Of a stretch of DNA of 64,000 nt, positions 13,353 to 45,432 are shown one piece after another (the first letter of the stretch is position 1; each line of letters opens with the position of its first letter). Where the stretch lies: positions 36,013,854 to 36,077,853 of the forward strand of contig CM037871.1 of NCBI GenBank assembly GCA_021292105.1. Direction: 5' to 3'. This stretch comes from Anadara kagoshimensis. Its lineage: Eukaryota; Mollusca; Bivalvia; Arcoida; Arcidae. The notes beneath the pieces were generated by a model that saw only the letters and a list, made by a program, of their open reading frames with translations, had not been told where the DNA came from and ran no database searches. Made by a program: the position numbers and the translations under genes.

Positions 13353-14475
13353 TACGAGGGGAGGTCAAGAAGTTCATAGAACGGGGTATATATTGCCGCA
13401 ACAAACCATACATTTTATAATTTTTCTTCAATATAGTCCCCATTTACCCCAATGCACTTAGCCGACTTTTCTTTCAGACTGTCTATACCTTTGAAATAGA
13501 AGTCTTTGGTTTGGTCCTGAAAACATACCTCTGTGGCAGACTTAAGTCCATCATCATCAGGAAATCTGATTCCCCGTAAATGGGATTTCAAATTTCTAAA
13601 TAGGAAATAATCACTGGGTGCCAAATCGGGACTGTAGGGTGGGTGAATAAGTTGTTCGAACTTGCATTCACGAATCGCTGCTTGTGCAACTCTTGACTTG
13701 TGCACAGGAGCATTGTCGTGAAGAAGCAATACCCCTCGGCTCAACTTTCCTCTCCTTTTTTTAATTTGATAGCAGCTTTCAGCTGCTTCATTAGATCAGC
13801 ATAGTAAGCTCCAGTGATAGAGATTCCAGCAGGTTTATAATTGATTAACAGAGCACCCTTAGAATCCCAAAAACACATTGGCCATGACTTTGCCAGCTGA
13901 TGGTTGGGTTTTGAATTTCTTTGGTGGGGGTGAGCCAGGGTGCTTCCATTGCATGGACTCTTTTTTGGTTTCTGGGTCCCAATGATAAATCCATGTTTCA
14001 TCACCAGTTACTAAACGTAAATGGAAGTTCTCCGGGTTATCATTATAAATGCCAAGAAGTTCCCGACTTGACTGGAGTCTTTGGAAGCGATCCTGCACAT
14101 TGAGGTTTCTGGGGACCCATCTTGCGGATACTTTTGACATCCCAAGATGCTCGTGAATAACCGTGTATACACTTCCATAGCTATGTCATCAATCCTTATT
14201 CGGCGATCATTCATGACGAGGGTCTCCACAGACGTGACAATTTCCTTTGTGATGGCATCAGCTGGCCGACCTGACCGTGGGTCATCCTTCAGTGAGGTGC
14301 GCCCACGTTTAAATTCAGCTGACCATTTTGCCACTGTGGAATAGACAGGACCACTGTCACCGTACACCTCGGCCATTTGCTGGCGAATTTCTTTGGCATT
14401 TGGTCCCTCTACTGTGAGAAACTTTATTACTGCCCTAAACTCAACATTTTGATTTCCCATTATTGCTTGATGGTC
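13353..14475 (-). mobile_element. Mariner element B, near full-length but frameshifted
   Basis: Three overlapping minus-strand frames together cover a mariner transposase. They are an N-terminal HTH part (14460 to about 14170, including EIRQQMAEVYGD and SGRPADAI), a middle part (14140 to about 13860, with ARWVPRNL and LRLVTGDETWIYH), and a C-terminal part (about 13900 to 13415, with GVLLLHDNAPVHKSR and PPYSPDLAPSDYFLF). The three catalytic Asp positions of the D,D34D triad (GDETW, HDNAP, PSDYF) are all still present. At least two or three frameshifts make it inactive as assembled. The 3' end has a mariner-style terminal CGAGGGGAGGTCAAGAAGTT at 13355 next to TA. A matching inverted end beyond 14460 was not found, so the other terminus may be lost. 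Confidence 0.85.
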
Positions 14476-15130
14476 ACCAACTTTGAATGCTTTTGAGAAT
14501 TACACAAATATGTTGTGACAAATCACAGGGACCAGTTTCATAATAAAATTTAAAAAATACCCCTAAGTATAAAAAAAGAGTAATGGGAAACAACGGATCT
14601 GATCTTTCACTTGTAGGTACTCCGACAAAATTCTACATTACTTTTTTATTTCGTGTCCAGTCATCGTGATCTTGGTGTCATTTTGTTCCCAGATAAATAT
14701 TCTTTAAAATGACATTCAATTTTTGGACATAATTTAAAATCCTAATAAAATGTTCACACGGAAAACACAGAAAAACGTTGTAATTTTGCCCGATGTAGCT
14801 AGGCCCGTCCATGTAAAAGTAGCTTAAGATTCGCATTACGGTATGTTTTTCACTACCAGCGTCCATGTCAACTACAAATGCTGATGTGGATCGCAGAAAT
14901 AAATAAAAAGCAAGAAATCTCAAAGGTAACCGTTACTCACTTCTACCTGTACAAGCTATTGTATCCTATTTTGTATATTTATATAGACGACTAATAATTC
15001 TATCTACAGTAAGTTCCAACGGAAACATCACATTTCAAAGAGCTCTGTCTCACGTTGAGCTGGGGGGATTAATTATATATCTATCATATGGCGTATTTTT
15101 CTGATGCTCCAGGAGATGCTGCTGTGAAAC

Positions 15131-17953: not shown

Positions 17954-18687
17954 GTGTATTTTCTATCATGAGTGAAGACATGTATCATCCTCTAGAACAG
18001 ACAAAGAATCTGATGTCTTGGATCTTAATGAGACATCATTAGAACTTAAACTGTCAGATACAATGGAATCATCTCTGGATCTTTTGAAAGATGGATCCTC
18101 CAAAGAATCAAAATCAACTGCTAGCTTGTTGGAGCTTAAGAAAGGTTCAGAAAATAGTTCAGAAAATGATGGATTAAATCTCAACTCTGAACCAATAAAT
18201 CAAGCTGTTCAAGATCAACTTGATTCAGCATGTTCAGGTGCCAATGTTTCAAAAACACATCAGTTTGATAAACAATTTTACTATGGAGATCAGGAAACTG
18301 TTAAAGCAAGAAGTGAAAATTTTTCAAAAACAACTGATAAAAAAGAAGGCGGTATTCAAAGTGAAGTCAGCAGTTGCCATGGAAATGACAAGGAATTACC
18401 AGTGTTGAATGCAGAATCACAAGAAGGATACACCTCAGCTACTCATTCAGAAACTAAAAAACAAATTACAACTTCAAATATTACATCTATAGACTACAAA
18501 GGTCAACTTGACACTGCTTTAAAAAAGTTGTCAAGAGTGGAACGTCAACTGGATAAAGCTAACAATTATAACGATGAATTGAGAGCAGAACTGGAGAAGC
18601 TAAATTCTGAGCTACATAAATACAGAACTTCAGCACGAAATAAAGTAGATGTGGCTATACAGGTCATGGAGAGTGGTCTCACAACAG
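17954..18687 (+). CDS. AGGF1: AGGF1 exon 1 as seen (acidic region and coiled coil)
   Basis: The acceptor TTTTTACAG ends at 17953 and the donor ACAACAG/GTATTG falls after 18687 (phase 1). The open frame runs from 17976. Its first ATG is 18063; another frame has ATG at 17968, giving MSEDMYHPLEQ before a stop at about 18042. The coded part is acidic and Ser/Leu-rich, then forms a heptad-type coiled coil ([20 protein letters not shown]) ending in [10 protein letters not shown]. That end matches the human coiled coil plus KSDVEVQTE. The acceptor implies an upstream exon, probably 5' UTR or the true start, which I could not find. Confidence 0.8.
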
Positions 18688-21600: not shown

Positions 21601-24600
21601 AGCATTATAAATTGTGATTATTTTAATTTTGAATATTTATCTACAGCCTGAAGAATCTAAGTCTATTGCCGACACACTAAGAGAGACGGCTGAAGAGGCT
21701 GTAGCACAATCAGGATATGTTTACGATGAAAACTCCGGCTTGTATTACGACTATAACACAGGATATTATTATAATGCTGTGAGTATATGTAGGCAAACAA
21801 CTTTGACCTGTCCACTTGATCTTTTATTTAAATATTTATCACGGACCAAGTTCATCTGTGTATAGGGGACACAGGTGTTTATTTTGTATACATCATGAGA
21901 TATACTCACCTCATAGAGTAAACCTATGCATTGTGTATGTATTAACAGTGAATAATACTACTTACCATTTATTGGGCGGACCTTCCTATATGAATATTCC
22001 TAATGAAAGGTCAAACGGACAGGTCAATATTGTTTACCTATACATGTATATCATACAGGATCCAGTTGTTTGAAGCTTGATTAGTTTATTAAGACCAATT
22101 TAAAACATTACTTAAAATCAACATATCATTATTGAATCAGTACACAGCCAAATTTTGTTCACATGAGTTTCATGAGAAATTAATATGAAGTTCGCATGAA
22201 AAATTTCAAGTGAAATTAACGTGAATCGAGTTTATACGTTAAACTCATGTGAAAAATATCACTTCAAATTCATGTTAATTTCATGTGAATTTAACATGAA
22301 ATGTTGGCTGTGTAGACATTTTTGGTTAAAGAACTTTGATGGACTAAATCATGTACATTGTAAAAGTTTAAAAATTTCCAGTTAAAGATAAAGATGTGCA
22401 GGTTAGGTACAGGGTAGTGGAATAACTGTTGTTTTTTTGTTTCAGGAGAAAGGGTTATATTATGATCCACGGACAGGGACTTATTTCTATTATGATCAAC
22501 AAACGGGAGAGTATCAGTTTCATTCTCAAGTTGACCTTAGTTATTACACAGGTCATCACCATGGTAACACAGATGACTCTCAGCAAACTACATCAAGGCC
22601 CCAGACAAATAACACACCTGATTTAAGGAAGAAACTGTCACAGAAGAAGAAAGAAAAAGTTAAAGGACAAAAAAGTCAGCAGCAAAAAGAACAGGTTTGT
22701 TTTGTGTCTCTGAAACTATAACAGGCATTTGAGAAGTTTGGTGGCTTATTTCATAAATTTCATGATCTCCTGTTTGTATGAACACTGTAGTAGATCGGTA
22801 GAGTGTAAGTGGGAGGTCGTGGGTTCAAACCCAGACTGAATCTGACCCAAGACTTAAAATAAACAAGGTCCTGTGTCACTGTAAGCACGGTACAATAATG
22901 AACCCTGCTGTATAATACCATCAGCACAACTCACAGGCAAAATTTCTGCACCTTTGCCAATAGCTGGCAATGTCTCCATATAAGTGAAATATTCTTGACT
23001 GGGACATTAAACACCATTACTCAACTCCTGTTTGAATACATGAACAAAACACTTTATCATTTATATATTTTGTTATATCCATGAATAACAATGTTGATTC
23101 CACAGGGTTCCCACAGTCTTGAAAAGTGCTTGAAAAATGAGCCTTGACTGGAAAAGTCCTTGAAAATGAATAAAAACAAGCAGAGTCTTTGAAAAGTCCT
23201 GGAATTCTGTCAGTCTGCCTTGAGAAGTCCTGGACTTTTAAACTAATCAACCTGAAACTCGCGGTAAAAACGCAGCTGCAACGTTTATGATAAATAACAA
23301 AAACGTTGAGTTATCCCTCTTGTCTCTGTCAATATCATTTGTGAGTCTATGACTTGTAATGGAAGAATTCTGGGTGGTGTTCCACTGAAGGAAACTACAG
23401 TGAAAAAGACGCACAATTTGATTTCAGTGGTCAAAAATACCAATTTCAGAGTCCTTAAAAATGGTCAAAGAGTCCTTGAAAACTCCTTGAATTTTGTCAG
23501 GCATTGGCTGTATGAAACCTGTAATCCAAAAAATATGATTTGCCAAGCTGTTCGTCTATTACATTTATTATGTCCCCGTAACAAACTGGTCACAGGGGAT
23601 GTAAAGTGTTTACTCCATTTTTTTGCAAACATTTTGTCTCCCACTTTTCTTGAAATCTGTTTAAAAGATGTTTCTGAAACTTCACAGGAACAGTCTTTGG
23701 GTGGAGGAGATGTGTCACTGGTTATTCGTAGTTTGATCATACACATGGTTGGGAAAAAAGGGATTTCCCAGTTGGGATTGTTTAGGCGACAATTTTTAAA
23801 ATGGCATCCCATTTCATTTTATGACTTGTTACTATTGATTTCACAAAATTATCTACAGTCAAACTTGTATATAAAGGCCACCCAAGAGAACAGTAAAAGT
23901 GGTCTTCATGGGCAGGGGACCTTTATATACAGGTTCAAACAATATGAATAAAGAACAATTGGGATACTATTCTACTTGACTTTAAAAGTAAGTGGTTCTT
24001 ATATTTATAGGTGACCTTTAAGACAGGTTGGACTGTATATATAACACTTTTTAAAACCATTTATTTTATTATTTATTTTTTTTGCAATCCACAATGGCCT
24101 TTAGGCTAAAAGGTGAATGTTATTTTCCACAGTGAGTATTGATATGTAACTTACAACTGTGACAGGAAACATCTTTTGATTTTTCACCAGGTGAACCATG
24201 ATATAGATGAAGTCACTGCCGGTATTGATAAACTTAATTTCACCAGTACAAGACCAAGAAAGAGAGGTTTAGGTAAATATCATTGTAGTGTTTATATTTT
24301 TGTTTTATTTAGGGGAAACGGAAACATCAACAAGAAAAGAAAGACGAGAAACATGCCAAAAAGAGGAAAAGGAGAAGGAAATCAAGGTTGGAAAAATGGC
24401 AAGAAATCTGTCAATCTAAAGTGAAAGAAATTGATAAAGATAGCAGCGTGGGAAATCAGATAGAGCTCAGTTCTTCCAGTAATGAGTCACAGGCTGTAGG
24501 GAAGTCAACTCCAGGATCAAGTAAAGATAGCTGTAAAGAGGGTGTCAGTATGGACGATGTTTACAAGGACATGCCAATCTTTGAACTGTCATCGGAGAAT

Positions 24601-27331
24601 GCCGATGCCCAGGTAGCCTCGGATGAAAATGTGTCAAATAATTCAATCAGGATTTGTGTTAATCCTGCAGGTCAAGGTCAAAGTAGTGACATTAGTAACA
24701 AAGCAGATAGTTCAAGGACACAGAAAGTAAAGTTAATGAACGGGGATGAAATGGAACAGGGAGAATTAAGTAGTGACTATACGAGTGACAGTGAGGGAGA
24801 ATCTAGTAGTCTCTGTACGGGAGAATCAGAGTTAGAGTCTGGTGAACTCACTGATAGTGACAGCGAGGAATCGGTAATAGAAGTATCAGATGATAGTGAT
24901 GATAATGATAATATCATTACCCAGGAAGAAGGTATAGTAAAACCTCAGTATAATGCCCCCTCGATAACTTTGCCACCTCGCTTATTACCACATTATTTTG
25001 AAGTCAGAAAATTTGTTTCTTTTTACTTTTATGCTTTTCTTTACAAGTTTCCTTTCGATTAATTGCCAAAATTTTTATAATACCAAATTTGGACTTGGTA
25101 AATAGTGGTGAAGAATCAAGGTACCATATTTATAAAGCTGTTCATCTTTTTTTCTATTAAAAGGGAGGTGCAGTATACTTTGAATGTACATGTATTTGTC
25201 TATTAGTGGAGTGGAGTAAAGGTGTTTTATGCCCCAGTGAAGATTCTTTCAATTATATCAAAGTGGTCATCTCAGAAAAACTCCGAGTACACAAAGAAAG
25301 CCACCATCAAGTGATATACTTTCTTACACTAGAATCTGTCTTAAGTGGGATTTAAACCTAGGCAGTGAAAGGCACTGTGATGCATAAGCATGCTCTTTAT
25401 ACCTCTCGCCCACCTACGTGTAGTTCTCCTTCATAAAAAAAACATTTCTTTTAGTTTACAAATGTATTATTGACGTGAATCACGCTAATTGTTGTTTATG
25501 CATGCCAAAAAAATTATTATAATGCATGCATTCACGCTACATGGAGAAATTAAATTTAAATTCTCAACAATGAAACTGTCTAGTAAAATCTTGGTCCGGG
25601 CGTGTGAAAATTTTGCTAACTAGCCCGACTGGTCTAGTCTTTAAAAACATTGTGTTGAACCCTGGTCCCAGAAGTAAAAAGCAGTGTACCCCATTATTTC
25701 ATGACTATACCCCAGTTTTTAAAAATCATGGGGTACAAAACTTCATTTCTTGAAAGGTGGTGGGAACCCTGATTTGAACCACACCACTTGGTACTATTCT
25801 ATTAGTACATGTATATCCATTGATCAACTGTTCTTCATAAGAGAAGTTACATTACAAAATATATTTTGAATCCAGGAAGGGTGGCCACCTTTGTGTAATA
25901 GCTATGGAAATACTATGGTCAATTCCTCATATTTAGAGTGGATAGTGGAAAACAAAATAGAAATGAAAGTACAAATGTACATTTTTATCCCATTTCTGTT
26001 TATTTCAGCTCTAATAAGAAAGTGTCAATGTAATGATATCAAATCTAGCAATAAGTTAGAGGTCAAGTTTGAAAATGAGTATATTAAATGTGTTTTAATG
26101 CATAATGATGGTTCATATCAGTTATCAAATCCTTTTTTCTTGCATTCCATATAGAAAAATAAGGTTGAGTTTTCCATCTGGTACCACAAATAGTGATGGA
26201 TTCTATTGTAATCATGATCACACAATATGTTTCAGTAACCATTGGGTGATAATACTCATATTATATGTAACACGTAATTTTCTTTATTTACAGACCTAAC
26301 CATAAGTTATCCCCCTTGTATAAGGGTGATAGTCACTGATTCCGACTGTTTAGATATTGGTAATTTATACATCATCACTGTGACAGGCACAGCTATAGGC
26401 AGGGAAGCAGGTCAAGGTATCCTGATACCCGACATTAATATTAGTAAGGTATGGAAATTAAAGAGTGATATTAAAATAGCCCACAAAAGTCTTTAAGAAT
26501 AACTTTACTCACTTGGTGCACTTGACTTGTAACCAATTAGACATCAACATCTCCCATATCTCTCTGTAAGTGTTTCTTTGACATCGATCAGACATCAACA
26601 TCTCCCATATCTCTCTGTAAGTGTTTCTTTGACATCAATCAGACATCAACATCTCCCATATCTCTCTGTAAGTGTTTCTTTGACATCAATCAGACATCAA
26701 CATCTCCCATATCTCTCTGTAAGTGTTTCTTTGACATCAATCAGACATCAACATCTCCCATATCTCTCTGTAAGTGTTTCTTTGACATCAATCAGACATC
26801 AACATCTCCCATATCTCTCTGTAAGTGTTTCTTTGACACCAATCAGACATCAACATCTCCCATATCTCTCTGTAAGTGTTTCTTTGACATCAATCAGACA
26901 TCAACATCTCCCATATCTCTCTGTAAGTGTTTCTTTGACATCAATCAGACATCAGCATCTCCCATATCTCTCTGTCAGGAACTGTGCATTGAATGTCGGA
27001 CAAGTTTGGTTAGATATTAATCTTTAATGTTTTCAATTAATATGTGTAAAATCTAATAAAAAATCTGATAAAATCATCATTAATCTGGTATTTCCATGCA
27101 TATTGTTCTTGGCCTTTGACCTCAGGCCAATATGACACACTATGACCAAATAACTAGGTCAATATGGAAATACATGATTTATTTTTTTACATGTATTTTA
27201 ATTATAGTTACAATATGTAGTGTCTCGTAGGCCACATGTGGCCGGATATAAAAATTTTATAAGGTTTTTTATGTGTATGTGAACATTGAATTTTTATATG
27301 TGACACTTAAATAAAATAAATTATTAATTAA

Positions 27332-30300: not shown

Positions 30301-33300
30301 TCATACCAAACATTTGCCAAACACATACAGTATGTAACAGGAAAGAAAAAAAATGCAGGGTCGGACCTGGGATCCAACCTTGGACCTTCCACACTATAGG
30401 CAAGTGCTCTACCATTGAGCTACCCTGACTGCTACATTCCTCCCTTCCTTTTTTCGATTCAACTCCTTTGAATTGAAACCACTAGGTTCCACCCTGGGAC
30501 CAACCTATTGGTTGGCAAGTCCCAGGGTCAGACAAGCCCTCAAATGTAACAAGAAAGAGGAAAAAATGCAGGGTCGGACTGGGGATCCAACCCGGGACTT
30601 CCTTCACTATAGGTGAGTGCTCTACCACTGAGTTACCCAGACCGCTACACATATACATTTGTATATTGGCTCGAGGGTCTTTTAAAAAGACATATGATAA
30701 CCCTTATGTATTGAATTATTACTTGGTTAAAACCCCATTATTACTTGGTTAAAACCCCATTATTACTTGGTTAAAACCCCATGTTGTTATTTCAGAGATT
30801 ATCATACTGTCAAAAGAAGAAAAGAAAAAACAATACAAAGACCAAATGAAATTAATAAAAATGAAATATGGATTAAAGGTAAATAGTAGATTTGGTATTC
30901 CTAGTACTCATTTATATCCATTGGAGTTGTAAACTGCCTCAATGGCTCAGAGCTAAAGTGTCCACCTTGATAGCAGGAGGTTTTGGGATCAAACTCCAAC
31001 TGAGTCATACAAAAGAATTAAAAATTTGAGATTTTGCTTTCTCGCCTGGTGCTTGATATTAAGAGGACAGAGTATTGACTGGTTCACCTGGTGTCTGTAT
31101 AATGTAATTTGGGAGTGGTATGCTTATCTGTGACTCCATGACCTAGCATCTTAGAGTTGCCTTGAGTGTATGTAAGTACAAGGCAAAGCATAAAAACAAA
31201 ACTTGCGCATCTCTTACATATATGTACTTGAATCTGTTCTCAGATTAATCCTTAGAGTTTAATAAACTTTATATTGTTGTGAATAGTTGAACCATTGCTG
31301 ATGCATCATTAAACAAAATTACAACCAACCAAACAATGGTGTAGCAAATATAATTTGTTAGTGTGAAGTCATGGGGATTATTCTTGACTGGGTCTCTAGC
31401 TAGATTTTAAAACTGCTGACCAGACAGAAAACCTGATGAAAGATGTTAAATTTGAATTGAAATACTAAAATTCTATCAGAAAAATATTTTACTTGTTTTG
31501 GACAAGCTAAACAGTTTATGTCAACAAATAATTATACACACTAAAACTATAGTCATTTGTTGTAGAATGCAGCTTATGTGGATAACGTGTCTGCCTTAAA
31601 GAATCCAGCATATTCTGATAAAGCACAAGAAAGAAGAAAAACGGTTGGAAGTGACAATCCTTATCAACCTGACGAGGTCCCAGCCTCTGTACATAGGTAA
31701 GAATTCATTAATATGATGAGGCCCCAGCCTCTGTACATAGGTAAGAATTCATTAATATGATGAGGCCCCAGCCTCTGTACATAGGTAAGAATCCATTAAT
31801 ATGATGAGGCCCCAGCCTCTGTACATAGATAAGAATCCATTAATATGATGAGGCCCCAGCCTCTGTACATAGGTAAGAATCCATTAATATGATGAGGCCC
31901 CAGCCTCTGTACATAGATAAGAATCCATTAATATGATGAGGCCCCAGCCTCTGTACATAGGTAAGAATCCATTAATATGATGAGGCCCCAGCCTCTGTAC
32001 ATAGGTAAGAATCTATCAATACAGGCCTTTGTCTGAGCATTAAGGGTGTGCCCGGCTATCAGTCAATTCAAATCTGGGAAAGCTATAAAACTTTGGATAA
32101 CTAGACAACCTGGTAAATATTGATTAATTATAGAGATAATATCAAAATTGTGTTCCATTATGAATGCTGTAGAAGCTGAAAAATTGATATTGCAAAGTAT
32201 GCAAAAAACCTGTACCAGTCTTTTTCATTTTTTAAAGGCCTATTTCTGAGAAGAATGTTGGACACAAACTATTGAAGAAGTTAGGTTGGTCAGAAGGAGA
32301 AAGTCTAGGAAAAGATAACTCTGGCATACAGGAACCAGTAAGTTGTCTATTACTATATATTGTATTTTTTAAAAGAGAATTTAATGTCACTTTTATTGTT
32401 TATTACAAGTAGGGATTTAAATTTCCTACGTCAAAAATGTTTACTTTGTGTCAGCCTATGTGATTCTGAAGACTTGTTACACTGTGATCTGTGGTGAGAT
32501 CTGATTTCATATTTCAGATATATACAATGTGTAAGAATGTTTTAATTTTCATTTCTAGACAGGCAGTTGAGTAATTTATGGTCTTTAAAGTCCAGTCAGG
32601 ATTCTTTCACTTATGTTAAGGTAGTCAGTTCTGCAATGGTGGAAGAAACTGGAGTGCCAGAGACAACCCCGAAAAACCTTGTGAATACTAAATTTTGAGT
32701 GAAAAAGTCTAAACTGAATTACAATAGGGTCTGCAGACTGAAACATAAGTAAACAAAACTAAACAGAAAAAATAAACCTGTTTAAACCAAACTACAGTGA
32801 AATACCCTAAGAAAACAAGGAAGTGAATTAGGATCTCCTGTCAGTTGTTTTTTTTTTTGTGATTTGCACTTAGGTTTGATAATGTGCATATCATCTATCA
32901 CTGTTGATGCTTTCTGCTAAGTCTTTAAACAGAGTTTAAATTTCTCACAGGCCACCATAGTTCAGTTTTCACAGGTTCCACAGTAGTTCAAATTATATAG
33001 GTTTTCTGTTTACTCTAAGTTCAGTTTTCACAAGTTATTACTATTTTTTGGTTGGATTTCAAAGTCAATCAGTAAGAGTTGCTTTTCTTGATCTGTTTAA
33101 AATCATTCATCACTGCCAAAGTGAGATGATAAAATGGCTAACTGATATCAAATGAGTCTATATTTATGCTGTAAAAAAGTTATTAGCCCAACATATGAAA
33201 AATGGCATTTGAGGCATAATATCATTTTAAATTGTAATTTAAAAGATATTTGATATGTTGAATTTGTGTAATTTTATCAACATTTTACTTTTCTATATAT

Positions 33301-42300: not shown

Positions 42301-45085
42301 TTATATACTCCTTGATCCTGAGAGCATAATTATGGAATTTCCACACCCTTAATTGTTAATTATTATATTGTCTTTGTTACAATGTACACAATACACATTA
42401 GATCTGAAAAAATTACAATAAACGTGATCAAATTTCTGTTTCAAGGGTTTTGATTACGTGCGTAATAAAGTGTATCTTGTTTCAAAAAATATGTCTAAAT
42501 GTTTTAACTTGAAAAAATTGTACATTGAAGGATTAAAAAGAATGTGTAAATTATACGTTATTTATGAGTTTAGTCACAGAATTTTGACACAGACCATTTA
42601 ACTTTATGAATAACATTTAGAAATGCTCCTAATCTAGTCTTTTGAAACTGTGAACTCTGTAAAAAATAATTATAAGAATTAATTGCATATTTGAAGGTGC
42701 TTATTTTCTTTTTTTTCAATATCACTTTGCAGAGATTTACTAACCATATTGTCATTTTTTGAACATGAATGCAGATGATTAGTGTTTTAAATCATGAGAG
42801 TTGATCTTGAAAAGCCCCACACTGAGTCTACTACCGGTCTGATATTATCCGCCATACAATCCGAGTCGTAGTTAGTGTATTTAGAGATTAAAATGGTTTA
42901 ATTACCAATATTCACTCGACAAATTGAGATTATCAGTCAGGACAATAAAATTTAACTTATGTCAAAAAGTATTGATTATAAAACCTACCCAGTCCTTTCT
43001 ATTGTCAAACTATATCATTATACACTGAATTGATTCATTTACCCCTCCTGATAAATGAAAAAAGTTGAGAAATTCATGCGGAGTTCATTTATTTGATGTC
43101 ATATATTAAATTCCTTTGTGTTCCCCAGATTTGCACCCTATGTGTATGTTTGTGAAAATATAATAAACTTATTGATTGAAAATAATATAAAATATTTTGT
43201 AAAAAAAACTGTATTGTTATTTATTGATTTCAGTGCCTATCATTTTCAGTATATTTCTTTAATTTCTTTCAGTTTTAAAATTTGTTACCTGTTGTGAAAT
43301 ACATTTCATTATATTAATCTGATTTAGTCAATTTATTTGTGTAACTTCACTTTTACAAAGTACTGATACATATATCAATCTACCCTTATTTTCCTTGGAA
43401 AAATTTTCTTTATTATATTCAGATACAAAGTTGAAAATAGTGGAATAATGGATTTTTAGGCACCTGTCAATTAATATTCTTTCACCTATATCAAAGTGCA
43501 GGTCATTTCATGGAATAAGAGTTAGTCAAATTATGTGTAACATAATTCACTCTACAAAGTACTTGTACATAAAAATTGATGCCAAACTCTTGATTTCCAA
43601 TTACATAGAAAGAAACTAAACAGTGGCCTAGCTGTTAACATCTAGCTTTTTAGCTCATTTAAACCATTGTTATGATTTACTATCCATCATCCACTTTGTC
43701 CCCTTGGGTCCTCATAAATAGGGAAATAGTGAAAGTGTTTAAAAATGTTGTTAAAACCTATGAATGCTACAATCGCATGTAGTTTCTAATTTGCACATAC
43801 AGCCCTCAATTTTGTCTACTAAAGTGGTGGCCAAATCGAGCTGTAATTGTCTGGCGACCTAAAATTTGTAAATGGTGGCCAGCTTGTCCACTTTTAATTT
43901 AAACTTTTGTGACAAGATATTATTTCTGTGTTACAGAATTTTCATGAAACTGTTACCATTTTAGGCAATATAATGGACACTTTACTTTCATTATTAGTCC
44001 CCTACCAGCAAAAATCGAAGGGAACTTTAGGTTTGCACTCTGTCTGTCTGTCCGTCCGTCCGTCTGTCATGCCTCAGTTTTCCACACTTATTTTCTTAAA
44101 TCTTTTAGATAATGAACTGATTTTTGGTATGTGAGTCTACCATGATGAATTACAGATCAAGTTAGCGTTTCATTCTGGTCTGCAAATTTTTACATGAGTT
44201 ATGACCCTTTGAACGATGAAAATTCACTGAAATATCAGTTTTCCGCTCTTTTTTTCTAAATGCTTTTAGATAATAAACTGATTTTTGGTATATGAGTCTA
44301 CCATGATGAGTTACAGATCAAGTTTAAGTTTTGTTTCCATCTGCTAATTTTTACCGGAGTTATGGCCCTTTGATCTTGAACAACACGTATAATTTATAAC
44401 TATAAATCTTTGGGATTAGTGAAATATGCGACCGGTAGGGGAGTATGTATTGTTTTGCAATACTCTCAGAATGCTTGTTGTTATAAATAACACTGATGTT
44501 TGTAAGTGACTGTAAGTCAATTTTAAAAATGTGCATGTTTGTTCTCCATACCTAAAGATGCCTTAATTTCCTTCATTTAGAAGAAAAGGTTGCCTGGCCA
44601 CTTGGAATTTCCACTGGCCACCTGAAAATTTAAATTGGTGGCCAACTGGCAACTTAGTTTTGAAACCCACTTTTAGGGCTGACATATTTTTGAATTTGGT
44701 CCAAAATAGAAATAAACTATTGGGACACTATAAAAAAGTGTTGTGTAGTAATGATTGGGCATTACTTGATATACTAGCAAACCCCATTGTGTCCTCATCA
44801 ATAAATATCTACAGTATGTGCTAGAAGAATGAGAACGAGATCAAAAATTACATGTTATGAACATTCTACTTCTAGGTACAGGCAAATATCAGAGCCAATC
44901 AGGCAGCAGGTTTAGGGTCAGAGGTTAACAGACAAAGGTCGCTGGATGATGTTGCTGACCTTTCAAAAGCACAGAGAATGTTACAGACTCAGCTCAGATT
45001 TTTACAAACTGAAAAGAAGTCTAAAGGTCAGAAGTCATCAAATGCAGTAAGATTTGTTCAAGGGCCAACACAGGAAAATACCTGA
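18063..45085 (+). CDS. AGGF1: AGGF1: angiogenic factor with G-patch and FHA domains 1 (12 exons)
   Basis: CDS join: 18063-18687, 20347-20423, 21647-21778, 22446-22694, 24313-24931, 26294-26448, 27474-27575, 29122-29278, 30796-30878, 31566-31696, 32238-32337, 44876-45085 (about 879 codons; human is 714). Every internal boundary is AG/GT and the phases fit. Order: coiled coil (about 144-202), OCRE octamers (257-305), a Lys-rich then acidic Ser-rich linker, FHA (about 577-690: TAIGRE, SKDHA, GSQNGT), DTCDECEPG, a LSKEEKK...KYGLK segment, a Pro/Ser-rich part ending VPASVH, and a G-patch (785-827: [14 protein letters not shown]). In vertebrates AGGF1 is reported as a secreted angiogenic factor and also a nuclear OCRE/G-patch protein. 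OCRE domains bind splicing factors and G-patches activate DEAH helicases, so a role in splicing is the likely ancestral one (inference). The start is uncertain: 18063 is the first in-frame ATG after an acceptor at 17953. Confidence 0.93.
19071..19411 (+). repeat. tRNA-derived SINE, copy 1 (in AGGF1 intron 1)
   Basis: The head resembles a tRNA: A-box region GTAGCTCAGCTTGTAGAG and B-box GGGTTGGAACCCC. A conserved body follows (GTCTGACCCAAGACT, ATGAAAGTCACAGTTCTTTC, TAATGCCATCAGCGCAATGC) and a tail with ATTCTTGACTGG and TTAAACACCATTACTCAACT. Three further copies occur in this window. Confidence 0.85.
20097..20273 (-). mobile_element. MITE-A copy (AGGF1 intron 1)
   Basis: A reverse-oriented copy with CTTGCCTTAAAAGCC at the left and ATAGGATTGACTG at the right, carrying the AGTAGAATTGTATCCCAATT signature. 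The left terminus has diverged. The right flank is TA. Confidence 0.7.
20347..20423 (+). CDS. AGGF1: AGGF1 exon 2
   Basis: 77 bp between TACTTCAG and AAG/GTTAGT. It takes phase 1 and returns phase 0, coding a Gly/Asp-rich linker ([13 protein letters not shown]...). The weak polypyrimidine tract makes it the least certain internal exon, but the phase fit to both neighbours supports it. Confidence 0.7.
20740..20763. promoter_or_regulatory. Two palindromic TGACGTCA (CRE-type) sites
   Basis: TGACGTCA occurs at 20740-20747 and 20756-20763, spaced by 16 bp start to start, in AGGF1 intron 2. These match the CREB/ATF consensus. Activity is unknown, and they may simply belong to a repeat. Confidence 0.3.
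21021..21052. repeat. Solo end of GTGAGCTTGTGGCTCAC repeat
   Basis: TTTTGTGAGCTTGTGGCTCA followed by CAGTTTTTCT is identical to the end of the element at 63018-63280. Confidence 0.7.
21140..21515. repeat. Probable inverted-repeat element in AGGF1 intron 2
   Basis: TTTTTTGTCACCCTTCAAAAC near 21268 and TTTTTTTGAAGGGTGACAAT near 21491 are inverted copies about 200 bp apart. Between them are repeated 'GTACCCCGGC'-type phrases. The limits are uncertain. Confidence 0.45.
21647..21778 (+). CDS. AGGF1: AGGF1 exon 3 (OCRE, first half)
   Basis: 132 bp, phase 0/0, between CTACAG and GCT/GTGAGT. It codes [20 protein letters not shown] followed by tyrosine octamers, very close to human SLAESLRAAAEAAVSQTGFS. 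A MITE-B starts about 15 bp after the donor. Confidence 0.95.
21792..22040. mobile_element. MITE-B copy (AGGF1 intron 3, next to donor)
   Basis: The left arm (CAAACAACTTTGACCTGTCC) and right arm (GGACAGGTCAATATTGTTTA) are inverted, about 45 bp each with mismatches, and enclose about 150 bp with no ORF. It begins about 15 bp from the exon 3 donor. Confidence 0.65.
22446..22694 (+). CDS. AGGF1: AGGF1 exon 4 (OCRE, second half, basic linker)
   Basis: 249 bp, phase 0/0, acceptor GTTTCAG, donor CAG/GTTTGT. It completes the OCRE repeats ([29 protein letters not shown]) and enters a Lys/Gln-rich linker. Confidence 0.95.
22783..23027 (+). repeat. tRNA-derived SINE, copy 2 (internally deleted)
   Basis: Same family as copy 1 (GTCGTGGGTTCAAACCC, TGACCCAAGACTTAAAATAA, ATTCTTGACTGGGACATTAA). 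It lacks most of the D-arm region and the segment holding AGTTCTTTC. Confidence 0.8.
23098..23515. repeat. Dispersed repeat with GGGTTCCCAC start
   Basis: Begins CAGGGTTCCCACAGTCTTGA and carries many variants of 'TTGAAAAGTCCTTGAAAA' in both halves. The GGGTTCCCAC motif begins several metazoan DNA-transposon families (general knowledge). The 200-codon + frame starting inside it shows no known domain. Confidence 0.5.
23856..24035 (+). mobile_element. MITE-A copy (AGGF1 intron 4)
   Basis: From CAGTCAAACTTGTATATAAA to GACAGGTTGGACTG, flanked by TA on both sides, with the shared interior signatures. Confidence 0.8.
24313..24931 (+). CDS. AGGF1: AGGF1 exon 5 (nuclear-type basic run, acidic linker)
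   Basis: 619 bp, phase 0 in and 1 out, from TTTATTTAG to GAAGAAG/GTATAG. It begins with a strongly basic stretch ([13 protein letters not shown], a likely nuclear localisation signal), then a long Ser/Asp/Glu-rich low-complexity region with [16 protein letters not shown], comparable to human EPEEGEITDSQTEDS. Confidence 0.93.
25210..25405 (-). repeat. SINE family 2 copy (AGGF1 intron 5)
   Basis: The 3' segment 'AAGATTCTTTCAATTATATC' and the 'GGGATTTAAACCTAGGCAGT' segment match 61109-61310. On the minus strand the latter reads as a B-box-like AGGTTTAAATCCC. Probably a second tRNA-derived SINE family. Confidence 0.5.
26294..26448 (+). CDS. AGGF1: AGGF1 exon 6 (FHA, N-terminal half)
   Basis: 155 bp, phase 1 in and 0 out. 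It codes [20 protein letters not shown] and TAIGREAGQ, matching human WPPCIRVIV and ATIGREK. The Gly-Arg of the phosphothreonine-binding loop is present. Confidence 0.95.
26533..26983. repeat. Nine-copy 51-bp minisatellite with GTAAGT in each unit
   Basis: The unit CAGACATCAACATCTCCCAT plus ATCTCTCTGTAAGTGTTTCT plus TTGACATCAAT repeats with very few changes. Because 51 is a multiple of 3, one frame stays open for 149 codons, but the product is pure repeat and not a gene. Eight copies hold CTGTAAGTG, a strong 5' splice-site match; the last reads CTGTCAGG. It begins 85 bp after exon 6. Confidence 0.95.
27331..27365. repeat. (ATT)n microsatellite
   Basis: About 11 ATT units in AGGF1 intron 6. 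Confidence 0.9.
27474..27575 (+). CDS. AGGF1: AGGF1 exon 7 (FHA core)
   Basis: 102 bp, phase 0/0. DHAFVGFD completes the SxxH motif begun as ISK in exon 6, and [11 protein letters not shown] is the conserved FHA Asn-Gly loop. Confidence 0.95.
27724..27780. repeat. Solo MITE-B arm (AGGF1 intron 7)
   Basis: ACAAACAACATTGTCGTGTC followed by CGCTTGACCTTTAATTTAAA matches the MITE-B left arm. No right arm was found nearby. Confidence 0.5.
28412..28545. repeat. Four-copy 33-bp tandem repeat
   Basis: The unit TATGACATCATTTGATACAG plus TTWCTAAGGMCTC repeats about four times in AGGF1 intron 7. It stays open in one + frame only because 33 is divisible by 3. Confidence 0.9.
29122..29278 (+). CDS. AGGF1: AGGF1 exon 8 (FHA end and CxxC element)
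   Basis: 157 bp, phase 0 in and 1 out. It codes the last FHA strands ([19 protein letters not shown]) and DTCDECEPG, matching human DTCDGCEPG. Confidence 0.95.
29873..30066. mobile_element. MITE-C copy (AGGF1 intron 8)
   Basis: The ends ATGGGGTTCGCCGCTGTACC and GGTACAGTGGCGAAGCCCAT are inverted. The interior carries TATGGAATCACATGAGATGA and GTGACGTCATTCTGTGACG. A second copy lies at 46297-46507. Confidence 0.75.
30333..30652 (-). repeat. Two tandem tRNA-like SINE heads (AGGF1 intron 8)
   Basis: Two copies about 210 bp apart. On the minus strand each reads as an A-box-type segment (GTAACTCAGTGGTAGAG in the second) and a B-box-type GGGTTGGATCCC, at a distance consistent with a tRNA. Between them CCACCCTGGGACCAACC and GGTTGGCAAGTCCCAGGGT form a hairpin. 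Probably tandemly duplicated SINE sequence. Confidence 0.65.
30717..30782. repeat. Three exact 22-bp repeats before exon 9
   Basis: TATTACTTGGTTAAAACCCC plus AT occurs three times without a mismatch and ends 13 bp before the exon 9 coding start. It therefore fills the branch-point region. Confidence 0.95.
30796..30878 (+). CDS. AGGF1: AGGF1 exon 9
   Basis: 83 bp, phase 1 in and 0 out. It codes [20 protein letters not shown], ending YGLK, the charged segment matching human LSKEEKELERRKELKKIRVK. Three 22-bp direct repeats lie only 13 bp upstream of its acceptor. Confidence 0.93.
31566..31696 (+). CDS. AGGF1: AGGF1 exon 10
   Basis: 131 bp, phase 0 in and 2 out. It codes [20 protein letters not shown] and ends VPASVH, matching human NPKYKDRAGKRREQVGSEG and APASVH. 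Its last 25 bp plus donor have been duplicated into a 44-bp tandem array that starts immediately downstream. Confidence 0.95.
31672..32015. repeat. 44-bp tandem array of exon 10 end plus splice donor
   Basis: The unit is GATGAGGCCCCAGCCTCTGT, ACATAG, GTAAGAATCC, ATTAATAT, with eight copies counting the genuine exon end. Donor-position dinucleotides are GT at 31697 (real), 31741, 31785, 31873, 31961 and 32005, and AT at 31829 and 31917. The alternation suggests that an 88-bp pair was duplicated. Confidence 0.97.
32238..32337 (+). CDS. AGGF1: AGGF1 exon 11 (G-patch, first half)
   Basis: 100 bp, phase 2 in and 0 out, acceptor TTTTTTAAAG, donor CCA/GTAAGT. It codes [18 protein letters not shown], the conserved glycine-rich helix of the G-patch. 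Confidence 0.95.
32575..32700. repeat. SINE family 2 fragment (AGGF1 intron 11)
   Basis: GTCCAGTCAGGATTCTTTCA followed by CTTATGTTAAGGTAGTCAG is the conserved tail seen also near 25230 and 61115. No tRNA head is seen. Confidence 0.4.
33350..33379. repeat. Poly-G tract
   Basis: About 28 G in AGGF1 intron 11. It is a potential quadruplex site, and its assembly length is doubtful. Confidence 0.9.
34333..34524 (+). mobile_element. LINE 3' remnant (jockey/CR1-like ORF2 end)
   Basis: The frame 34336-34524 reads TRGH, stop, [20 protein letters not shown] then [10 protein letters not shown] and [10 protein letters not shown], ending in TAA. This matches the very C-terminus of many non-LTR retrotransposon polymerases (TRGHxxK...YSFFPxTxxxWN.L pattern). 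One in-frame TAG and the absence of the RT domain show it is a dead fragment inside AGGF1 intron 11. Confidence 0.7.
35862..36760. repeat. MITE-A-derived tandem array (AGGF1 intron 11)
   Basis: Starts with a MITE-A-type terminus (TA, CAGTAAAACCTGTTATAGTG). About nine copies of a 75-90 bp unit follow, containing TCCATTAAGACCAGTGTATT, AAGGTCCCTTTGCTT and AAAAAGAACCTCTATATAAA. It closes with three 45-bp copies of TTTCATGGGTGGTCTTTGTA plus TACAGG. The interior of one element seems to have expanded in place. Confidence 0.75.
37486..37574. mobile_element. MITE-F copy (AGGF1 intron 11)
   Basis: The ends CCAAGCTCCGAAACAACG and CGCTGTTCGGAGCTTGG are inverted. The interior shares CCTAGCTCCGTATGTCGC and TACGAATGTTGGC with 56812-56900. 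The element is about 90 bp and has no ORF. Confidence 0.7.
37831..38051. mobile_element. MITE-B copy (AGGF1 intron 11)
   Basis: The left arm (GTAAACAACACTGACATGTC) and right arm (GGACAGGTCAATGTTGTTTG) are inverted, with about 140 bp between. It is the source of the match to the receptor start at 2917-2947. Confidence 0.65.
39030..40500 (-). repeat. About 22 copies of a 67-bp tRNA-like unit
   Basis: On the minus strand each unit contains TGGCTTAGTGG, an exact fit to the Pol III A-box consensus TRGYNNARYGG, and 20 bp later GGTTTGATCC, a B-box match lacking one base. True tRNAs have a wider A-B spacing, so each unit looks like a tRNA-derived head with a deletion across the anticodon arm. Copies vary at a few sites, and some carry TGGTGGTTA or deletions. 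The short + strand frames through the array are repeat read-through and not genes. Confidence 0.85.
41153..41460. repeat. GTGGCGGATCCAGG dispersed repeat
   Basis: Begins AGTGGCGGATCCAGGATTCT with a GT-rich run, and ends with GGGGGGCACAGGCCGG and a CATCTGGATCCATACCTG phrase. The same start is seen reversed at position 1-56. Confidence 0.5.
41796..42090 (+). repeat. Repeat family H, copy 1
   Basis: Shares its whole length with 49077-49357: TTATCCCCCACCTTTTGAAG, GGGAGATATTAAATT, ATGAAACACTATTT, TTGGAGTAATGGCCCTTTGA and CCTAATTCACTGAATTTGCT. No ORF of note. Confidence 0.75.
43996..44446. mobile_element. Element with CCCCTACC/GGTAGGGG ends
   Basis: Inverted ends AGTCCCCTACCAGC and GACCGGTAGGGGAG, about 450 bp apart, with a (GTCC)n-type tract after the left end and an internal duplication of 'TAATRAACTGATTTTTGGTA'. 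A non-coding dispersed element in AGGF1 intron 11. Confidence 0.6.
44876..45085 (+). CDS. AGGF1: AGGF1 exon 12 (G-patch end, C-terminus, stop)
   Basis: The acceptor CTTCTAG is followed by [16 protein letters not shown], finishing the G-patch. A Gln/Lys-rich tail [17 protein letters not shown] follows, with TGA at 45083-45085. A first AATAAA lies at 45369-45374, so the 3' UTR may be short and end before the minisatellite. This is unproven. Confidence 0.93.
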   Translation, partial: VQANIRANQAAGLGSEVNRQRSLDDVADLSKAQRMLQTQLRFLQTEKKSKGQKSSNAVRFVQGPTQENT

Positions 45086-45432
45086 AAGTATGTTGAAAGG
45101 AACCAATGGAATTACTTTGATTTTTGCCAGAGGAAAGAATAACAGGTTGGAGGTTAAGCACGTGAGATTACTCAGAACCATGGTAACATATGATATAAAT
45201 TTGCCTGTGAGAGACTAATTGGTTGTCTGTGTCTTGCTAAGGAACATGTTGTTTCTGGCAGTGGTTTGTTAGTTTTGATAGCAAGCATGACATTGATGGA
45301 ATAATGTTTAGCTCAGTTGATAGAGTTTGAAGTGGAGATAGGTATTGGGTATACTATCACGGCTTCTCAATAAATGGAAGGAAATATATTGCTGCATGTG
45401 TTCCAAAAACCAAAGGATAGTTAGCACTGAGA

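Follow-up and report, generated by a model that had tools for sequence, protein, structure and literature searches.

A 44-bp minisatellite spans the exon 10 donor of an AGGF1-like gene

The window that we analyzed is a stretch of 64,000 nucleotides from the genome of the bivalve Anadara kagoshimensis, and it contains a gene that, judged by its predicted domains, is AGGF1-like. Pfam matches to OCRE (2.2e-20), FHA (8.4e-15) and G-patch (2.1e-14), each over its cut-off, were found in this order within one gene, the order expected of AGGF1; the scan was run on three pieces of manually joined exons, in which the 5' exons, the start codon and the donor of exon E5 are uncertain. The gene also matched human AGGF1 exon by exon. 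These matches support the identity proposed in a first-pass annotation made from the sequence alone, and we follow the exon numbers used there. The AGGF1 exons examined in the window have open frames. Three of them, all on the forward strand, are referred to below: exon 10 (31566..31696), which is coding and ends in PDEVPASVH plus AG; exon 11 (32238..32337), which contains the G-patch; and the last exon (44876..45086), which encodes the C-terminus and the stop.

The end of exon 10 is the beginning of a tandem array. TRF identified a minisatellite at 31670-32021 (+) with a period of 44, 8.0 copies, 97% matches and a score of 648, which bears out the eight-copy array described in the first-pass annotation. 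The unit had been given there as 25 bp of exon and 18 bp of intron. Comparison of the units places the boundaries differently: each comprises 27 nt from the end of exon 10 and 17 nt from the start of intron 10, and in exon 10 itself these 27 nt belong to unit 1. Exon 10 ends at 31696, and the first intron bases of the eight units are spaced exactly 44 nt apart, at the first position of each hexamer listed here. Six of the eight units have the donor TAG/GTAAGA. The authentic exon 10 donor lies in unit 1 (GTAAGA at 31697..31702), and decoy copies of GTAAGA lie in units 2 (31741..31746), 3 (31785..31790), 5 (31873..31878), 7 (31961..31966) and 8 (32005..32010), all on the forward strand. Units 4 (31829..31834, +) and 6 (31917..31922, +) read ATAAGA, and the donor is lost. 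The five additional GTAAGA and two ATAAGA copies reported previously are thus confirmed.

Units 3, 5 and 7 are identical to one another, as are units 4 and 6, which fits a single 88-bp step. The G/A/G/A/G alternation in units 3 to 7 is most simply explained by duplication of one 88-bp pair, as the first reading of this DNA had suggested.

Downstream donors would end the protein ahead of the G-patch

We joined exon 10 to exon 11 from each unit and translated the products. From donor 1, the frame continues into the G-patch. From any of units 2 to 8, the translation is VPASVH followed by Arg and a stop (7 of 7 cases, a count that includes the two AT units), and this stop falls ahead of the G-patch. 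The truncation after VPASVH that had been predicted for use of a downstream donor thus holds for every unit. By these coordinates, intron 10 is 541 nt long when measured from donor 1 and 233 nt long when measured from unit 8.

Strength, accessibility and order of the donors

The predicted U1 duplex is -9.4 kcal/mol for all six GT donors and -2.7 for the two AT units. Pairing of the GT donors is predicted to be stronger than that of the eight other AGGF1 donors compared; in this set of nine, the 9-mer for FHAb is shifted by one base, the donor taken for E1 is uncertain, and E5 is not represented. Donor 1 is predicted to be the least accessible of the series, with an opening cost of 5.10 kcal/mol compared to 0.98-3.89 for units 2 to 8; for other AGGF1 donors, the predicted cost is 2.08-6.40. 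On this model, the higher opening cost would count mildly against the use of donor 1. It also leaves unsupported the idea that RNA structure conceals the decoys, because the opening energies are lower at units 2 to 8 than at donor 1.

The position of donor 1 in the transcript is a separate consideration. In classic in vitro work, the intron-proximal of two identical donors was favored. A designed human library in which both donors were consensus sequences is reported to have used the first predominantly, and the same report describes earlier evidence on donor order as conflicting (PMC6783452). In DOK7 intron 4, SRSF1 is reported to favor the intron-proximal donor, which is also the stronger one there (PMC5585400). 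As described, these systems resemble the AGGF1 locus in having more than one donor for an exon, one of them canonical, and differ from it in having two donors, whereas the AGGF1 locus has six identical GT donors and two that are lost. By analogy with the designed library, donor order argues for the use of donor 1.

A second copy of the locus has three units

A search of the genome with the array found a second array locus at C15:35205188, ~840 kb (~0.84 Mb) away on the same contig. A 501-base query containing the array had at least three matches, namely this locus, the second copy and a weak 55-base match just past the array. The search ignores simple and very common words, so the numbers of matches are lower bounds. 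With the same bound, the finding of only two array loci gives no support to a dispersed satellite or transposon as the source of the unit.

Positions 48-63997 of the window are mostly collinear with C15:35.170-35.243 Mb, apart from unmatched stretches, of which that at ~8.6-12.6 kb is the largest. The two copies differ at 1176 of 37033 aligned bases (3.2%) in the long alignments compared, with 9.6 indels per kb. The collinearity is not limited to the window. Each of the four outside probes that gave an answer is paired with a second site at a distance of 0.81-0.83 Mb (35.000 with 35.832, 35.400 with 36.214, 35.600 with 34.787, and 36.300 with 35.482 Mb). C15 therefore contains two adjoining, head-to-tail, collinear blocks of ~0.8 Mb, with a junction between 35.48 and 35.60 Mb. 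The blocks extend at least over 34.79-35.48 Mb and 35.60-36.30 Mb.

From their layout, the two blocks are probably two haplotypes retained in one unpurged assembly; alternatively, they may be a true 0.8-Mb tandem duplication. The 3.2% difference is in the range of heterozygosity in the Manila clam, estimated at 3.7-4% in a paper on that species, a likeness that is an analogy and not a test. If one block is an unpurged haplotype, then genes in these blocks may be counted twice in this assembly.

In the second copy the array is shorter, with three units that all have GT. The first of them reads DEAPASVH and is identical to unit 2 of the window. Unit 1 of the window, the one in exon 10, differs from it at two bases, one silent and one causing an Ala/Val difference. 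In the third and last unit, the exon part has diverged (CCTCATACAAAGG). The sequence 3' of unit 8 in the window (AATCTATCAATACAGGCC) also follows the last unit in the second copy, and because it is common to both we take it to be the native continuation of intron 10. The two copies, which are probably but not certainly alleles, thus differ in unit number, with eight in the window and three in the second copy.

Noisy long reads can give the wrong size for short arrays, and the unit number in one copy or both could have been inflated or collapsed during assembly; the second copy of the gene also has likely consensus errors elsewhere (see below). We consider such an artefact very improbable. The 44-bp register is perfect, the units carry distinct, structured variants (GT/AT and T/C), and the array is present in both copies.

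Coding constraint in the two copies

We compared the coding sequences of the two copies over nine gap-free exons (434 codons); E1 and E5 were excluded because of gaps in the second copy. There were 13 synonymous and 6 non-synonymous differences, for a dN/dS of 0.12. The constraint across these nine exons, as estimated from codon differences, shows that the AGGF1 protein has mattered. For exons 11-12, which lie beyond the array (103 codons), there were 3 synonymous and 2 non-synonymous differences and the ratio was 0.19, numbers too few to be firm. The G-patch exon has no differences between the copies over the 101 positions compared, 32238-32338 (P = 0.038 at 3.2% divergence).

The second copy has clustered frame-breaking indels, mostly of 1 nt, in E1 and E5, within coding DNA that is otherwise nearly identical. 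The clusters are at L008:194-810 and L008:6643-7316, the second copy of window positions 18063-18686 and 24314-24989. With E1 and E5 included, the assembled reading frame of the second copy is interrupted; this copy may be a pseudogene or it may hold consensus errors. Judging from the pattern of the indels, we think that they are consensus errors.

These observations bear on the possibility that one of the copies, either that in the window or the second, is a decaying duplicate gene in which splicing at the array is irrelevant, a reading that overlaps with neutrality of the array. Two copies on one contig, in tandem blocks of ~0.8 Mb, and the broken frames of E1 and E5 count in its favor. The examined exons of the window are open, dN/dS is low over the nine exons, the small clustered indels resemble consensus error, and the arrangement of the blocks is as expected for a second, unpurged haplotype, and on balance we regard gene decay as distinctly improbable. 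Both gene decay and assembly error overlap with the neutral, dosage and regulatory readings considered below, and the likelihoods that we attach to them are not additive.

Other arrays in the window also vary in length

Minisatellites with a period of at least 10 are common in the window, with 25 arrays covering 7190 of 64000 bases (11.2%). The array at exon 10 is the only one of the 25 that covers any of 20 AGGF1 splice sites tested. By circular shifts within the window, the one site of 20 found inside an array compares to a mean of 2.25 (P of at least 1 = 0.82), and two of the 20 sites are within 20 nt of an array; a few of the sites are off by one base, and two (18687 and 24996) are approximate exon ends. 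Overlap between arrays and these 20 sites is thus no greater than chance.

We could lift 22 of the 25 arrays to the second copy, and three with impossible negative spans were dropped. Among the 19 compared, including the donor array, 14 differ in length by at least 20 bp and five by at most 1 bp, and not all of these differences reflect a change in unit number. The donor array and the ordinary minisatellites of the window are alike both in the kind of array and in the turnover of length between copies. For example, a 22-bp array at 30715..30782 (+), which is outside the donor array and ends 13 bases short of the start of exon 9 at 30796, has 3.1 units in the window and 17.1 in the second copy. 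A 33-bp intron array has 3.9 and 90.1 units, respectively.

Some of the repeats in this region have features of their own. A 51-bp intron array at 26534-26975, which begins ~86 nt past an FHA exon, has TCT/GTAAGT at eight places and is a second ladder of donor-like sites. In the second copy, this array has 4.1 units with the consensus GTAAATG, and has a longer span with fewer units because other sequence intervenes. In addition, the acceptor and the start of the last FHA exon are duplicated in the second copy, at C15:35202219-35202384 (L009:7219-7384; ~90 bp, 1.8 copies), but not in the window; on inspection by eye, the upstream exon fragment leads into an in-frame TGA. Outside the arrays, translations of window positions 13415-14499 (-) gave broken open frames, which we take to resemble a mariner-type transposase.

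Is the array a regulatory switch?

The first-pass annotation had raised an autoregulatory or graded truncation switch as conceivable. Under such a scheme, AGGF1 would shift the choice of its own donor and produce either a protein without the G-patch or a transcript bound for decay, and the arrangement would have been selected. Poison exons do this kind of autoregulation for SR proteins. The array resembles poison-exon and NMD autoregulation in that the alternative choice, here any of units 2 to 8, brings a premature stop, and each of those stops truncates ahead of the G-patch. To our knowledge, the known poison exons are conserved, as is the alternative region in these systems generally; the array, which differs between the copies in unit number (three and eight) and in its diverged last unit, is not. 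The donor has also been lost in two units, and many other arrays in the window turn over in length as well. These findings leave a switch by conserved design unsupported, and the earlier suggestion gained no positive evidence from the comparison of the copies. A review, citing another paper, describes AGGF1 as a general splicing factor (PMC13111387). This is in keeping with autoregulation, but alone it is insufficient to make the array a switch, and we consider a selected switch extremely unlikely.

Comparison to the human ABCA7 repeat

A repeat described in human ABCA7 is similar in several respects. A 25-bp VNTR starts at the GT of the exon-18 donor, in intron 18; it has about 12-427 units, and its length varies between alleles (PMC5954066). 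Use of the donor in the next unit retains one unit and shifts the frame to a premature stop, and retention of a single unit is reported in 2 +/- 1% of transcripts, independent of VNTR size; longer alleles have lower expression and more skipping of exon 19 (PMC5954066). Both this VNTR and the AGGF1 array include the canonical donor of an exon, and in both the units offer GT donors. In ABCA7, a retained unit breaks the frame and leads to a stop, as is predicted, with Arg-stop, for AGGF1. The ABCA7 array begins at the intron GT, whereas the AGGF1 unit also carries 27 nt of coding exon, so that its decoys copy the exon context. The ABCA7 unit is 25 bp and C-rich and is present in up to hundreds of copies; the AGGF1 unit is 44 bp and is present in three to eight copies, two of them without GT. 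Finally, the effect on splicing was measured for ABCA7, whereas for the AGGF1 array it is predicted from the DNA. By analogy, the ABCA7 case supports the tolerance of a ladder of donors. It also warns that array length may act through another route.

That warning is relevant to the possibility that array length tunes dosage. More units would then mean more U1 binding downstream and more transcripts that end in Arg-stop or skip exon 11, and copies with three and eight units would give different levels of AGGF1 without any dedicated regulation. The six identical donors of high predicted strength, the greater predicted accessibility of the decoys, and the lower expression and increased skipping from longer ABCA7 alleles (PMC5954066) are all consistent with this. 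On the other hand, the decoy-donor isoform of ABCA7 was reported to be unaffected by array size (PMC5954066), and that array reaches hundreds of units, whereas here eight units compared to three add only about 220 bp. It therefore seems unlikely that length tunes dosage. A more specific version appears decidedly unlikely: the array would act as a naturally occurring titration of 5' splice sites that share one exon context and vary in number between alleles, and unit number would set AGGF1 dosage by how often the sole productive donor wins, like the human ABCA7 risk VNTR but with donor competition itself responsible.

Origin and significance of the array

The array is very probably a neutral, length-variable minisatellite that arose by slippage and is tolerated since the first donor is mostly used. 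The three units of the second copy, the length turnover of other arrays and the chance-level overlap with splice sites together favor neutral slippage, which the first-pass annotation had also named as the simplest explanation. Under this model, the first event would have been a tandem duplication of the junction between exon 10 and intron 10, with 27 nt of the exon and 17 nt of the intron. By replication slippage or by unequal exchange, the array would then have reached different lengths in the two copies of the locus, three units and eight, with one 88-bp step carrying a GT-to-AT change along. The gene would remain functional because donor 1 is strong, native, transcribed first and the only donor that keeps the frame. 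We infer that most transcripts use donor 1. A small fraction would use a downstream unit and end in Arg-stop, presumably leading to nonsense-mediated decay or to a minor truncated protein. Neutrality of the array is likewise our inference.

With the AGGF1 array, a VNTR that spans a splice donor, as in human ABCA7, is seen in one more animal. If the two copies are not alleles, the array is ordinary repeat turnover. If they are alleles, one heterozygous animal carries three and six GT donors in series in nearly the same exon context, and this pair of series could discriminate between first-come and intron-proximal choice of the 5' splice site.
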